Shown here one piece after another: positions 1,724-8,907 of a stretch of 49,506 nt of DNA (position 1 is the first letter of the stretch; the number at the start of each line of letters is the position of its first letter). Below the pieces are notes generated by a model. That model made no database searches. It saw only the letters and a list, made by a program, of their open reading frames with translations, and was not told the DNA's origin. This DNA is from Spirochaetota bacterium. Lineage in GTDB: Bacteria; Spirochaetota; UBA4802; UBA5368. A program made the position numbers and the translations under genes. The stretch lies in assembly GCA_004297825.1 (NCBI GenBank), contig SCSX01000024.1, positions 1-49,506 of the forward strand, written 5' to 3'.

Positions 1724-2410
1724 GTGCATAAATCGTCCCATGACGACAGGGGAAACCTTGTAAATTATTATGACATCATGAACGTGCCGCGCGATGCGGA
1801 CAAGGCCGCGATACGTTCCTCTTTCTGCGTCTTGATCAAGCGTTATCATCCCGATAGTTCGGGCGAGAATTCGCTCGATTACAGAAAAAAAGCCGAGCTG
1901 CTCATTAAGGGCTACAAGGTGTTGATCGATGACGCGCTAAGGGAGGAATATGACCGGCTCCTGTTTTCGGTGCAGCGGGAGAGTCCGCATGGATTCGTGT
2001 TCCTTCCGCGAAAGCGCGTGAAATATTCGATTTCCCTGGAGGGCCTTCTCAAGACCCGCCTGCTCAACAAAAGCATCCGCCGCGGCGAGCGGGTGCGTAA
2101 ATTCGGCCAGGATGTGGAGATATTCATAACGGCCGTGGAGGCGAAGAAAGGCATAATCGCCTATGTGGACCTTCCCACACGCGTGCTCTGTCCCCTGTGT
2201 ACAGGGAGCGACCGGGACTGCCATGTATGCCGGGGCGTGGGCCGAATCGCGAGCACCACGATGCTCCAGGTGAGCCTGCCGCCCCCCATAAAAGACGGGG
2301 CGAAGATCGAGTTCGACCTGCTCGCGGCGCGGCCCGACAAGCTGACCTCCTTCACCATGAAAACGCTCAGGGTGAAGGTAACAATGATTGGTGCCCGGGG
2401 AGCGCAGTGA
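1724..2410 (+). CDS. J-domain (DnaJ-like) protein with one pair of CxxC motifs
   Basis: A 228-residue protein with an N-terminal J domain (about residues 14-78) carrying the HPD tripeptide at 42-44, which stimulates Hsp70/DnaK ATPase in this family. The middle has no Gly/Phe-rich linker. Near the C-terminus are CPLC (156-159) and CHVC (166-169), half of the four-CxxC zinc finger of canonical DnaJ, followed by a short beta-rich tail similar to the start of the DnaJ C-terminal substrate domain. The start is GTG at 1724, directly behind GGGAGGAAGG; an in-frame ATG at 1778 would cut into the J domain. Its TGA shares a base with the ATG of the next gene, so the two are translationally coupled. It is a specialised co-chaperone rather than DnaJ itself; the client is unknown. 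Confidence 0.75.
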   Translation: MHKSSHDDRGNLVNYYDIMNVPRDADKAAIRSSFCVLIKRYHPDSSGENSLDYRKKAELLIKGYKVLIDDALREEYDRLLFSVQRESPHGFVFLPRKRVKYSISLEGLLKTRLLNKSIRRGERVRKFGQDVEIFITAVEAKKGIIAYVDLPTRVLCPLCTGSDRDCHVCRGVGRIASTTMLQVSLPPPIKDGAKIEFDLLAARPDKLTSFTMKTLRVKVTMIGARGAQ

Positions 2411-3462
2411 TGGAGCGGGCGGCGGTGATCGGTGGAGGCGTGGTGGGGTGCCACGTGGCGTACGCCCTCGCCCGGAAGGGATATGAAACATACCTGTTCG
2501 AGCGCCATGAGCGGCTGGGCCAGGAGACATCGAGCCGGAACAGCGGGGTGCTCCACGCGGGGATCTATTATAAAAAATATTCCCTGAAGGCCGGCCTGTG
2601 TGTCGAGGGCAATGCCCTTTCAAGGGAATTTTTCCGCGATCACGACGTCGCCTTTCGCGAGACCGGCAAGTATATTATCGCGCGCACCGATTCCGAAATC
2701 ACGGAAATCGAACGGCTTCGTGAATCGGCCGGGGAGAATGGCGCCCCGGTGGAGCCCGCCACGCCGTCGCGTGTGAAACGCGATCTCCCCTACATTGAAT
2801 GCGTTGCCGCGCTCTATTCGCCCAGCACCGCGATCGTCGACGCGGCAGATTACATGGACCGAATGAAGGCCGCCCTCTACCAGGCGGGGGTTTCGGTGAT
2901 TGCCCCGTGTAATGTGCGGGGGATTCGGGGCAACGTGTGTGTTACCGATCGAGGCGAGTTCCTCGCCGACCTGTTCGTCAACAGTGCCGGCCTGTACGCG
3001 GATGAACTTGCGGCCGAATGCGGACTGCATGGCTACGTGGTCAGGCCGCTTAAGGGGGATTACTACTCCACGGTGAGCATCGAATGCCGGGTTCCCGTAT
3101 ATCCGCCGCCGTCCGTCCATACCGGAACGCTGGGCGTTCACCTGACCCCCACGTTTGGCCGCGAGGTGCTGCTTGGCCCGTCGGAAACGCACACGGAGGC
3201 TAAAGACGATTACGAGATCAGGACGCCACGCGAGGAGTTTTCCTCTTCGCTCGCCTCGATGATCGATGCGGCAACCGCGGCGCGCATCGAGCTTAATGAG
3301 GGCTACTCAGGCAACAGGCCAAGGGTATATCTGAACGGGGAGAGGTGCGAGGATTTCGTGGTAGTTCGCCGGCCCTCGAATGTGATACACCTGTTGGGTA
3401 TCGAGTCCCCGGGCCTTACCGCCGCACCGGCGCTGGCGCGCTACGTGCTGTCGATGCTTTGA
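2410..3462 (+). CDS. lhgO: L-2-hydroxyglutarate oxidase-like FAD-dependent oxidoreductase
   Basis: A 350-residue flavoprotein of the DAO/glycerol-3-phosphate dehydrogenase fold. The Rossmann dinucleotide motif GGGVVG is at residues 8-13, an acidic ribose-binding residue sits in LFERHE, and the family signature SSRNSGVLHAGIYY follows, typical of LhgO/YgaF. The C-terminal GIESPGLTAAPALARYV is the second FAD-contact region. LhgO oxidises L-2-hydroxyglutarate to 2-oxoglutarate and passes electrons to the quinone pool at the inner membrane. The ATG at 2410 overlaps the upstream TGA (TGATG); the open frame continues upstream only as a shadow of the J-domain gene. It converges on hisD with a 15-base gap. 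A related 2-hydroxyacid substrate is possible. Confidence 0.85.
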   Translation: MERAAVIGGGVVGCHVAYALARKGYETYLFERHERLGQETSSRNSGVLHAGIYYKKYSLKAGLCVEGNALSREFFRDHDVAFRETGKYIIARTDSEITEIERLRESAGENGAPVEPATPSRVKRDLPYIECVAALYSPSTAIVDAADYMDRMKAALYQAGVSVIAPCNVRGIRGNVCVTDRGEFLADLFVNSAGLYADELAAECGLHGYVVRPLKGDYYSTVSIECRVPVYPPPSVHTGTLGVHLTPTFGREVLLGPSETHTEAKDDYEIRTPREEFSSSLASMIDAATAARIELNEGYSGNRPRVYLNGERCEDFVVVRRPSNVIHLLGIESPGLTAAPALARYVLSML

Positions 3463-4776: not shown

Positions 4777-5125
4777 GTTCAGTGCTCCTTGGCGATTCGC
4801 AAAGCGGATGGCTCATTCTGGCCGGTACCGTGGCCGATTTACAAGTAGATTTTTATACCTGTACATGCATCATGGCCGGGAACCGGTTCCCCGGGAAGGC
4901 TCTTCGGGTCTCTACTGCGCGACGAGCGGCGGATTGCCCTTGAAAACCGGTGAAAGGTTTCATAAATGTAAAATAGCGGCCCCGGGCGTGCACGATCCGT
5001 TTTTAATTTTGAAGGGAAAGGTCGCATCGGATACCTTATACTTGAAATAGTATATATCTATCAAAATAAGCGGAAAGGGGATGCCCCCGGGTCCGGGCAC
5101 CAAATAGTTTTTTTGGAGCGAGAAC
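4777..5125. other. 349-base intergenic region between divergent hisD and the KaiC-like regulator
   Basis: No convincing gene is visible. The stretch holds a perfect 14-bp palindrome GGGAACCGGTTCCC at 4878-4891. A short inverted repeat TGCCC/GGGCA at about 5086-5103 is followed by seven T residues just before the ribosome-binding site (TTGGAGCG) of the next gene. The hairpin is too weak and too far from the T run to call a terminator with confidence. Confidence 0.4.
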
Positions 5126-6397
5126 ATGATCAGTACGGGAATCAGGTATCTTGACAAGCTTGTCGGCGGTATCAAGCTGGGCGATAACGTCGTGTGGCAG
5201 ATCGCGAACGCGGTGCCCATCGAATTCTTCATCAAGAGCTTTTTCACGAAAATCAATGATTTTCAGAATTCCATTATCTATGTGAGCTTCAACTATGCGC
5301 CGCATACCGTCTGCAAGCGGTTCGACGAGATTTTCAAAAATTACAACTTTATCCTGATCGATGCCTTTACGCACGGCAAGGGAAACAGCGATCCCGTCTT
5401 CCTGGATTTCTATCATAACGAAGAAGGTTACGACCTTTCGCGCGTCACCTGCATACAGAATCCCCGCGACATGGCGGCGTTTCTCGAGACCATGAACACG
5501 ATACAGTCGGCGAATCGCGACGGGTCGTTCTATATATTCGACAGTCTTACCGGTATGAACGAGCTCTGGAAGGACGAGCGCTCGGTTCTGGACATGTTCG
5601 GGTTTACCTGTCCCAAGCTGTACGAGATGAACACGATCGCGTACTGGATACTCGAGCAGGAGGCCCACTCGAAAGAGTTCATAGCGGGGCTGACCCACAT
5701 CACGCAAATCGTGCTGTCCATGTCCAATATCAGCTCGGACCAGTATGCGCTTAAAATCCATAAGCTTGAAGGCAGACCCTCCACGAATTTATCGACGCCC
5801 TATATGTTCCGGATTATCGATGAGGAGATAGAATTCGAAGAGGTATACGACAATAACGCGTTCAAAATAGGGATCAAGGTGAAGGGGCTTCGCAAGACCA
5901 TGAACATGACCCAGGCGGAACTCGCCTCCAGGCTCGGGATGACGCCCGGGGCGATCTCGCAGATAGAGAACGATCTTATCACGCCCTCCCTCACGACCCT
6001 GGTACACCTGGCGTCGATCTTCAAGAAGCCGGTCGAGTATTTCATCAACGTGGAAACGATCGACAGCCAGGCCGAGGGATTTCGGATATATCGAAAGAAG
6101 GATATACCGCTTGCCATGGTGAGCAATCTCAAGATCGCCCGCATAGCCGATGAAAAAACCCAGGGCCCTATTCCCTACCTGGTAACCATACCCGGAAACG
6201 AGTCGCACGATGGACCGATACTCCTGCACAAGGGAAAAGAGTACATAATCGTGGTGAACGGCACCCTTGGCCTCGTGATAGACGGGGAGGAACACCTCTT
6301 CCGGAAGGGGGATGCGGTTCTCCTCGATCGCTCATTCGCCGGCAGGTGGACGAACCAGGGGAAAAGCGACTGCGAGTTCGTGTATATCCAGCTGTGA
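5126..6397 (+). CDS. KaiC/RecA-like domain fused to XRE helix-turn-helix and cupin domains
   Basis: A 423-residue three-domain protein. Residues 1-235 have the shape of a KaiC/RadA-type RecA fold (STGIRYLDKLVGGIKLGD at the start; Walker-B-like FYIFDSLTGM about 135-144). The expected GxxxxGKT P-loop is absent: the segment after LGDN reads VVWQIANAVPIEFFIKSFF, so ATP binding is probably lost. Residues 248-307 form an XRE helix-turn-helix (MTQAELASRLGMTPGAISQIE). Residues 350-420 form a cupin beta-barrel (HKGKEYIIVVNGTLGLVIDG...GDAVLL), as in XRE-cupin regulators that sense small molecules. The start follows TTGGAGCGAGAAC. The inferred role is a cytoplasmic transcription factor with two sensory modules. 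Target genes are unknown; the next gene is a TPR protein about 100 bases downstream. Confidence 0.8.
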   Translation: MISTGIRYLDKLVGGIKLGDNVVWQIANAVPIEFFIKSFFTKINDFQNSIIYVSFNYAPHTVCKRFDEIFKNYNFILIDAFTHGKGNSDPVFLDFYHNEEGYDLSRVTCIQNPRDMAAFLETMNTIQSANRDGSFYIFDSLTGMNELWKDERSVLDMFGFTCPKLYEMNTIAYWILEQEAHSKEFIAGLTHITQIVLSMSNISSDQYALKIHKLEGRPSTNLSTPYMFRIIDEEIEFEEVYDNNAFKIGIKVKGLRKTMNMTQAELASRLGMTPGAISQIENDLITPSLTTLVHLASIFKKPVEYFINVETIDSQAEGFRIYRKKDIPLAMVSNLKIARIADEKTQGPIPYLVTIPGNESHDGPILLHKGKEYIIVVNGTLGLVIDGEEHLFRKGDAVLLDRSFAGRWTNQGKSDCEFVYIQL

Positions 6398-6494: not shown

Positions 6495-7361
6495 ATGGGG
6501 AGAGTGAGCCTGGATTCCGGAAATTCCAACAAGCAAGCCCTCGCCGCCCGGTTCCTGAAGGCCGTCCAGTTTGAAACGGAGGAAAAATTCGAAATGGCAC
6601 TGGGCGAATATGCCTCGATACTGAAAGAGAATCCAGGGCACAAGGAAAGCTACCTGAACCTTGGATCGCTCTATTCACGAATGAACCGCTACGAAGAGGC
6701 CATGGCCTGCTATGAAAAAGCCCTCCTGGTTCAAGAGGACCACGTCACGTATTTCAATATTGGGAGCATTCACTATAAACGCGGCGAATACAAGAAGGCG
6801 GTCCTCGCGCTGGAGAAATCCAGAAACCTCAATCCGTCATTTCCCATGTCAATGCTGGTCATGGGGCTCTCGTTCAGCCGGCTTAAAAATCTTAACGCCG
6901 CCAAATCCTGCTTCCTGAGGGTGCTGAAAACCTCGCCGTCCAACAGGGTCGCGATGACCGCGCTGGCGATCATCTATTATGAGAAGAAGGATTACGAAAG
7001 GGCGTTAAAGCTCGTCAGCACGCTGCTGTCGGGGGACGAATCGAACGCGGTCATGCGCAAGCTTCGCGCCGATGTGCTCTACCGGCTTAACCGGGTGGAC
7101 GAATCGGCCAGGGAATTCATCGACCTGTCGGCGACGAAAGAGGAATTCCGCCGCTATGACGATTTCGTGAAAGAGGTACCGGTTGACGTCTATACGGACT
7201 GCTACGGCTCTATCGGCGATAAAATCATAGGCCTCGAGGCGAAGGGGGACGCCATCCAGCGGGATGAGCTCATCTCCCTCAGCCTGTGCTACCTGCTGAA
7301 GGGCGACTCGGGGCGCGCGATCGAGTCCCTTTTCGAGGCGCGTAAACGAATGGTCAACTGA
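6495..7361 (+). CDS. TPR-repeat protein
   Basis: About 288 residues, made mainly of four to six tandem tetratricopeptide repeats (for example NPGHKESYLNLGSLYSRM, YEEAMACYEKALLV, HVTYFNIGSIHYKRGEYKKA). A less repetitive helical C-terminus follows. No signal peptide or membrane segment is visible, so it is probably a cytoplasmic protein-protein scaffold. The frame is open from 6312; ATG 6495 is chosen because the TPR region starts shortly after it and the upstream residues look like non-coding sequence. GTG 6504 and ATG 6459 are alternatives and none has an excellent ribosome-binding site. It lies in the same direction as the KaiC-like regulator and may share its transcript. The binding partner is unknown. 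Confidence 0.75.
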   Translation: MGRVSLDSGNSNKQALAARFLKAVQFETEEKFEMALGEYASILKENPGHKESYLNLGSLYSRMNRYEEAMACYEKALLVQEDHVTYFNIGSIHYKRGEYKKAVLALEKSRNLNPSFPMSMLVMGLSFSRLKNLNAAKSCFLRVLKTSPSNRVAMTALAIIYYEKKDYERALKLVSTLLSGDESNAVMRKLRADVLYRLNRVDESAREFIDLSATKEEFRRYDDFVKEVPVDVYTDCYGSIGDKIIGLEAKGDAIQRDELISLSLCYLLKGDSGRAIESLFEARKRMVN

Positions 7362-7382
7362 CGGCCCGGCGGGTATAAATGC

Positions 7383-7410
7383 TTGACATATCCAATGTGC
7401 CTTTCATAAG
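7383..7410 (+). promoter_or_regulatory. Sigma-70-type promoter of tRNA-Val
   Basis: A -35 TTGACA at 7383-7388 and a -10 CATAAG at 7405-7410 are separated by 16 bases. The predicted transcript start near 7417 is about 10 bases before the mature tRNA 5' end. Confidence 0.6.
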
Positions 7411-7427
7411 CTATTTCGCGTTCAAGG

Positions 7428-7501
7428 GGGCGATTAGCTCAGTCGGTTAGAGCGCCTGCCTCACATGCAGGAGGTCACTGGTTCGAGTCCAGTATCGCCC
7501 A
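7428..7501 (+). tRNA. tRNA-Val (anticodon CAC)
   Basis: A 74-base cloverleaf. The acceptor stem GGGCGAT pairs with ATCGCCC, the D arm is GCTC/GAGC, the anticodon stem is CCTGC/GCAGG with loop CTCACAT (anticodon CAC at 7462-7464), a five-base variable loop follows, and the T arm ACTGG/CCAGT has loop TTCGAGT. It reads GUG valine codons. The discriminator is A at 7501. CCA is not encoded (ACAC follows), so it must be added by the tRNA nucleotidyltransferase. Confidence 0.97.
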
Positions 7502-7653
7502 CACGCAATCCCTCTCGTTATCCGATTTCCTGTTACTGTGGTGTAAAAATTCAAGGGTTCCCCCGAAAAATGCTGTTCAGCGCCTCCCGATAGTAAAGAC
7601 TGAGTAATAATTTCTTATACGACGTATTCCGGGCCGCAGGTCCGGGCGGGGGG

Positions 7654-8907
7654 GTGGAAATGGGAGTGACCAGCAGCCGGTTCCAAGAGGTCATGCGTGA
7701 AGGGTCGGTGCGCACCGTTTTCCAGCCCATCATATCGGTCAAGAAAAATTCCATTATCGGCTTCGAGGCCCTGAGCAGGTTTGCCGCGCGGGGCGGTGAA
7801 ACCATCTCTCCCCTTGAGATGTTCGCAGAGGCGGCCGCCGGGGGGCATTCGCTCGAGCTCGACCGCCTGTGCAGATCGAAGGCGCTGGAGCGGTACGCAT
7901 CGCTCAATACCGGCGAGAATGAATATATACTCTCGATCAACCTGGATCCGGCCGCCCTTGCCGAGGGGTCGGGATCGAATCACCTGATGGAGTCGGTCGA
8001 GAAATACGGACTGCCGCCCGGACGCGTCCTTATAGAGCTCACCGAGTCGAATTCGTGCGGGATGGACCTTCTTGAAACATTTGTTACCGCGTATCGATCC
8101 AGGGGATTCCTGATTGCGCTCGATGACGTGGGATCGGGATACTCGAGCCTGGAGCGCATCAGCGTGGTGAAACCCGATGTGCTCAAGATCGATTGTGCGC
8201 TTACCGGGAAGATTAACAGCGGCTACCACAGCCGGGAGATGTTCAAGGCCCTGGTCTCCCTCGCCCACAAGACCGGTTCGCTCGTGGTGGCGGAAGGGGT
8301 GGAAACCGAGGACCAGGTGTTATCGGCCCTCGAACTCGGGGCGGACATGCTGCAGGGTTTCTATTTCGCGCAGGCGGCGGATGACATTGTCGCCGTCAAG
8401 GGCGCCGTGGAGGAAAAAATAGCCGGGATCGGGCTTACGTCCCGGAAGAATATTGTTAATAAGATCAACACGCGCAAGGCCCAGCACAAGAGCTACAGCC
8501 AGATTATCAATGACTTCGTCGCCGAGCTCTCGAAGGTGGACGAGGAGCTGTTCGATCCCACGCTGCACGCCCTCGTAAAACGCTACCCGGAGCTCGAATG
8601 CGCCTACGTGCTCGACAGCGATGGGCAGCAGGCAAGCGCGACCGTGTTCCCGGAAGGCCGGCAAACTTCGCCCCAGGGGTTTTTCTTCCAGCCGGCCCAG
8701 AAGGGAGCCGACCAGTCCTCAAAGGATTATTTTTTTCTCGTCGCGTCGGGCCTTCTCAAGTATACGACCGAGCCCTACATCTCCCTCGCATCGCGGCATA
8801 TCTGCATCACCATCTCGGTCGCATTCCGCGATCATAAATACCTGAAACGCATACTGTGCCTGGATATTGTCCAGGACGAGAGCCAGGCGCTGAGGGGCCC
8901 CGGCTGA
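7654..8907 (+). CDS. EAL-domain cyclic-di-GMP phosphodiesterase with C-terminal sensor-like domain
   Basis: A 417-residue protein. The EAL domain spans about residues 15-250 with the catalytic set present: E38-A-L, N96 (SINLDP), E128 (LIELTES), D157-D158 (ALDDVGSGYSS), K178 (VLKID), E214 and E217 (AEGVE) and Q234 (QGFYF). It should therefore hydrolyse c-di-GMP to pGpG. After a basic linker, residues about 285-405 form a mixed alpha/beta domain reminiscent of the PAS/PDC-like C-terminal domain of YkuI-type EAL proteins, a likely ligand sensor. No signal peptide or membrane segment is seen, so the protein is cytoplasmic. The start is GTG 7654 or ATG 7660, behind a G-rich stretch. It converges with the VWA gene with a 6-base gap. 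Confidence 0.9.
   Translation: MEMGVTSSRFQEVMREGSVRTVFQPIISVKKNSIIGFEALSRFAARGGETISPLEMFAEAAAGGHSLELDRLCRSKALERYASLNTGENEYILSINLDPAALAEGSGSNHLMESVEKYGLPPGRVLIELTESNSCGMDLLETFVTAYRSRGFLIALDDVGSGYSSLERISVVKPDVLKIDCALTGKINSGYHSREMFKALVSLAHKTGSLVVAEGVETEDQVLSALELGADMLQGFYFAQAADDIVAVKGAVEEKIAGIGLTSRKNIVNKINTRKAQHKSYSQIINDFVAELSKVDEELFDPTLHALVKRYPELECAYVLDSDGQQASATVFPEGRQTSPQGFFFQPAQKGADQSSKDYFFLVASGLLKYTTEPYISLASRHICITISVAFRDHKYLKRILCLDIVQDESQALRGPG

Follow-up and report, generated by a model that had tools for sequence, protein, structure and literature searches.

What might a bacterial regulator do with a KaiC-like domain that has lost its ATP site? The question is raised by a gene on the forward strand of contig SCSX01000024.1, from an uncultured Spirochaetota bacterium, analysed here over a stretch of 49,506 nucleotides (the window). 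An earlier note, made from the sequence alone, described its product as a RecA/KaiC-shaped N-terminal domain without a P-loop, joined to an XRE helix-turn-helix (residues 248-307) and a C-terminal cupin (350-420). The reading that I favour, with a probability of roughly 0.55 and on sequence evidence, is that this protein, here called KXC, is a transcription factor controlling glutamine/glutamate and ammonium-assimilation genes in an uncultured Spirochaetota order. Glutamine/glutamate metabolism as the controlled process, and a candidate operator with it, go beyond what the earlier note foresaw.

A three-domain protein without a P-loop

The open reading frame starts with ATG, and GGAG at 5115-5118 is a plausible ribosome-binding site. 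Its features are:

5126..6397, forward strand: iKaiC-XRE-cupin regulator (KXC), 423 aa
5126..5845, forward strand: inactivated KaiC/RecA-fold domain, residues 1-240, assigned from an AlphaFold2 model, Foldseek, VIA-align and a weak PF06745 match
5180..5245, forward strand: degenerate Walker A region, residues 19-40, GDNVVWQIANAVPIEFFIKSFF; GxxxxGK[ST] is absent from all 15 homologues
5360..5413, forward strand: KXC-specific motif DAFTHGKGNSDPVFLDFY, residues 79-96, near-invariant in 15 homologues
5528..5554, forward strand: Walker-B-like strand FYIFDSLTG, residues 135-143, with D139 invariant
5762..5776, forward strand: invariant K213...R217, probably where KaiC has its K-x-R finger
5867..6046, forward strand: XRE helix-turn-helix, residues 248-307, with a nearly invariant recognition helix, TPGAxSQIE
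6173..6388, forward strand: cupin domain, residues 350-421, in which only H368 and E372 are left of the usual metal motif

Pfam recovered both C-terminal domains above cut-off and where the earlier note had placed them, HTH_3 at residues 254-306 (E 1.1e-12, 48 bits against a cut-off of 23) and Cupin_2 at 352-421 (E 6.8e-8). HTH_3 is followed by Cupin_2 in all 15 members of the family, the arrangement that defines the XRE-cupin class. Residues 1-240 gave nothing above the Pfam cut-off, and NCBIfam returned only XRE-cupin and XRE models, all sub-threshold, with no model for the N-domain. Compared directly with the Pfam KaiC profile (PF06745), residues 1-242 aligned from 3 to 237 with profile positions 2-226 of 231 at E 0.047, which is under the cut-off, and six of 21 relatives matched the same profile, the best at E 1.5e-4. 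An AlphaFold2 model built from 12 sequences (mean pLDDT 76.5) found KaiC CI, FlaH and PH0284 when searched with Foldseek against the PDB (target TM about 0.64-0.67). VIA-align superposed residues 5-243 of the model on PH0284 over 211 residues (Z 17.9, rmsd 3.0) and returned Z 15-17 for many KaiC entries. A profile of the N-domain run against PDB sequences gave chance matches only and none to KaiC. The predicted structure of residues 1-235 thus has the KaiC/RecA fold that the earlier note had read there, not another one.

Three-domain homologues, 47-77% identical to the window's protein, occur in 15 of the 46 examined genomes of the order; the 52 Spirochaetota genomes searched outside it have none. 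A species-wide scan with patterns so specific that distant relatives could escape found KXC in uncultured Spirochaetota MAGs only. The gene has been lost at least once, as G003 retains a remnant at the syntenic place (L048:6452-6601) with 68% identity over 50 aa and one in-frame TAG. The regulator-less genomes searched contain no close paralogue without the KaiC domain, the best match reaching at most 81 bits as against at least 258 bits for KXC. A match in G031 to profile residues 163-407, with stops, belongs to an ordinary 213-aa XRE-cupin protein and is not a KXC remnant.

None of the 15 full-length homologues has a Walker A motif; the segment in its place begins with GDNVVW or, in a single sequence, GDNVAW. 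All 15 likewise lack the catalytic Glu pair after strand 2, with SFNYAP or INFNYSP there instead, as placed by sequence pattern. The earlier note had stated that homologues with an intact P-loop would make this copy a case of simple decay, and had named homologues sharing all three domains as support for its reading. Since all 15 combine the three domains with the lack of a P-loop, the absence that it reported in one sequence is a property of the family, and neither chance nor the isolated decay of one copy explains it. The motif F(T/K)CPKLY is also kept across the 15 sequences.

Nitrogen genes and a candidate operator

In family f7 of the order, nitrogen-assimilation genes lie within about 6 kb of the regulator in eight of nine loci, and the neighbours are gltB, gltD, gdhA, amt-glnB or an FMN-glutamate-synthase-like gene (examples were confirmed by Pfam; gdhA was named from sequence and found by homology). 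In f1, the window's family, the window included, the regulator does not adjoin nitrogen genes; the genes around it, named from sequence, are hisD, one TPR and one EAL gene, and an L-2-hydroxyglutarate oxidase-like gene. This last gene, at about 2391-3462 of the window, is near the regulator also in L031, L040 and L041, and the TPR and EAL-domain-like genes lie downstream at 6496-8907, syntenic with the regulator in f1.

The palindrome TTACATnnATGTAA was first spotted by eye in the upstream regions of 15 regulator genes and then sought by pattern search genome-wide; its full form is AT-n-TTACATnnATGTAA-n-AT. In the window it lies between hisD and the regulator:

4955..4974, no strand assigned: candidate operator whose core, at 4958-4971, reads TTTCATAAATGTAA, differs from TTACATNNATGTAA at one position and lies 154 bp ahead of the start codon
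Proposed DNA probe for the palindrome: ATTTTACATCCATGTAAAAT

The block that contains this site is conserved with the sister genome in 22 of 26 columns (85%), the hisD-regulator intergenic region being 43% identical overall. A second block in the same region, GATTTACAAGTAGATTTTT at 4834-4856, is conserved with the sister genome as well as the operator is, and is perhaps a control site of hisD; no other block of the region is as well conserved as these two. There is a further palindrome, TATACT-TGAAAT-AGTATA, at about 5037-5055, to which the TTACAT motif was preferred, being shared by several homologues.

Sites with at most one mismatch are found upstream of gltB, gdhA, the FMN-glutamate-synthase-like gene and amt, and also of carA (G017), carB (G000, G001, G002 and G005), pyrG (G002, G005 and G007) and a gene for a GAF-sigma54 activator (G002 and G005). 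The window's own genome has such sites upstream of glnA and of the regulator itself, and KXC probably also controls its own gene. The A-T flanks at -3,-2 and +16,+17 lie outside the searched pattern and are nevertheless conserved in 28-33 of 39 sites, unlike what is expected of chance matches. Another one-mismatch palindrome stands between MCP-like and flagellin genes (L110:3342; C25:21341 in the window's own genome), and may be either chance or part of a wider regulon.

The carB sites abut TTGACA, and several sites at gdhA, carA and amt precede one by some tens of bp, positions that would fit an activator; no fixed spacing from the palindrome to a -10 element was found. Among the palindrome-bearing promoters, sigma-54 promoters of the -24/-12 type occur at amt only, which rules out, as a general explanation, that the palindrome is an enhancer site for a NifA-like sigma-54 activator. 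In L241 and L120, a near-perfect -24/-12 sigma-54 promoter accompanies the palindrome at amt.

What binds the palindrome

Sites with at most one mismatch before gdhA, gltB, carB and pyrG were compared between genomes that bear the regulator and genomes that lack it. They are commoner with the regulator (27 of 50 promoters, against 11 of 80 without it; Fisher 1.4e-6, uncorrected for phylogeny), and the comparison genome by genome agrees (Mann-Whitney 3.6e-6, equally uncorrected). Restricted to genomes at least 80% complete, the figures are 25 of 48 and 7 of 64, and within f7 they are 18 of 33 and 4 of 28 (p 0.0013). For carB and pyrG alone, which played no part in defining the motif, sites precede 12 of 29 promoters with the regulator and 4 of 50 without it (p 8.5e-4, again without correction for phylogeny). 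That KXC binds the palindrome is the best single reading of these figures, though not a proven one.

The main competitor is that another nitrogen regulator, present throughout the order, binds the palindrome, and that KXC is only a member of its regulon, doing something else or fine-tuning the response. This would account for nitrogen-gene sites that persist where KXC is missing: G031 and G036, both 96% complete, have good sites at gltB, gdhA, pyrG or the FMN-glutamate-synthase-like gene, and other regulator-less genomes have exact sites before amt (G009), purF (G040) and the gene for a PPDK_N protein described below (G042). The GAF-sigma54 activator gene has its site both where KXC is present and where it is missing, the promoter of KXC carries one as that of any regulon member would, and the half-site spacing, TTACA-n4-TGTAA, resembles that of CRP/FNR-type sites. 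There are also regulator-bearing genomes in which several of these genes have no site, G013 and the window's own genome (gltB and pyrG) among them. Against a different binder, the association of sites with the regulator is strong and holds also within one family, and the recognition helix of KXC and the palindrome are both nearly invariant. Furthermore, sigma-54 promoters occur nowhere but at amt, and some of the residual sites are in genomes less than 80% complete (such as G006 and G023). I regard a different binder as the less likely reading.

The possible role of the dead KaiC domain

A domain homologous to the N-domain of KXC (about 25-28% identity), also without a P-loop, occurs in proteins of about 865 residues, where it is fused to PPDK_N (PF01326); examples are L042:9626-12205 and L039:5822-8419. 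In five f7 genomes (L037, L039, L040, L042 and L044) the gene immediately follows that of the regulator, and in regulator-less genomes, one of them from another order (L049), it adjoins gdhA; the window's own genome does not contain it. These proteins share with KXC the lost P-loop and the nitrogen-gene neighbourhood, but they have PPDK_N in place of a DNA-binding domain and lack the DAFTHGKGN segment. In KXC this segment belongs to a motif, DAFTxGKGNxDxVFLxFY, that is nearly invariant in the family and missing from the PPDK_N relatives. Residues 1-240 hold most of the invariant columns of the KXC family and are its best conserved part, and the domain is present in every homologue.

Could the N-domain, like KaiC, still sense ATP/ADP, using a non-canonical loop to bind and perhaps hydrolyse the nucleotide? 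The Asp of the Walker-B-like strand and the K...R pair are both invariant, and the invariant DAFTxGKGN motif contains GxK. However, no member of either family, KXC or PPDK_N, has a P-loop, other residues (SFNYAP, INFNYSP) replace the catalytic Glu pair, and the GKGN segment comes after another strand and has no equivalent in the PPDK_N relatives, so that I consider this improbable. A third reading takes KXC for an ordinary XRE-cupin regulator whose N-terminal extension is unimportant and in decay, with which the lost P-loop and the pseudogene remnant of G003 would agree. It is disfavoured, indeed very improbable, for no part of KXC is better conserved than the N-domain, which spans every homologue and is retained in a second protein family.

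If KXC is the nitrogen regulator proposed here, its XRE domain would bind AT-n-TTACATnnATGTAA-n-AT as a dimer, and the cupin, the dead KaiC domain or both would read nitrogen state instead of hydrolysing ATP. The signal might be a small ligand, with glutamine, glutamate and 2-oxoglutarate as candidates, or else a partner protein, for instance PII or the PPDK_N protein. The position of the sites relative to TTGACA suggests activation at many targets. A broader and tentative proposal is that KXC founds a family of nitrogen regulators, and that an ATP-less KaiC domain is a nitrogen sensor used twice, in a transcription factor and in a PEP-synthase-like protein beside gdhA. If this is true, transcription and enzyme level would read one common signal. 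The shared dead domain in any case links KXC to a protein that resembles an enzyme. The literature searched contains no regulator for nitrogen control in this spirochaete order, for which KXC offers a testable 20-bp operator and regulon.

Comparison with known systems

Judged from its sequences, KXC is a conserved, previously undescribed regulator family of uncultured spirochaete relatives. The author of the earlier note did not recognise the combination as a described family, and the literature searched likewise yielded no description of a KaiC, XRE and cupin fusion and no paper that names it, just as Pfam and NCBIfam have no model for the N-domain. Among nitrogen regulators, GlnR/TnrA and NtcA have targets of the same kind (glnA, gltB, amt), but they are of the MerR or CRP family and their motifs differ in orientation from the KXC palindrome. 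Residues 5-243 of KXC have the fold of the RecA-superfamily ATPases KaiC, PH0284 and FlaH (Z about 15-18); unlike them, KXC has neither Walker A nor the catalytic Glu pair. The PuuR-like XRE-cupin regulators (NF007408, with HTH_3 and Cupin_2) resemble its C-terminal part, and their model matches residues 243-419 at E 1e-12. With a score of 48 bits against a curated cut-off of 211, however, KXC is not PuuR, and it differs in its additional 240-residue KaiC-fold domain, in a cupin without most metal ligands and in its nitrogen-gene context.

Closest in design are the inactivated KaiC (iKaiC) domains, which are signalling modules in archaea (PMC5847659, citing Makarova et al. 2017). By the definition given in that paper, KXC has what marks an iKaiC protein, a KaiC-superfamily fold, a lost ATPase site and fusion to signalling or output domains, and like the archaeal members it is a multi-domain protein. 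The archaeal proteins are fused to REC or HalOD1, and the passages of PMC5847659 on them mention no XRE-cupin fusion. A dead KaiC signalling module is thus not in itself new. XRE-cupin regulators and archaeal iKaiC proteins are both known, and the novelty of KXC is the fusion of the two in bacteria, where an inactivated KaiC domain is used within a DNA-binding regulator.
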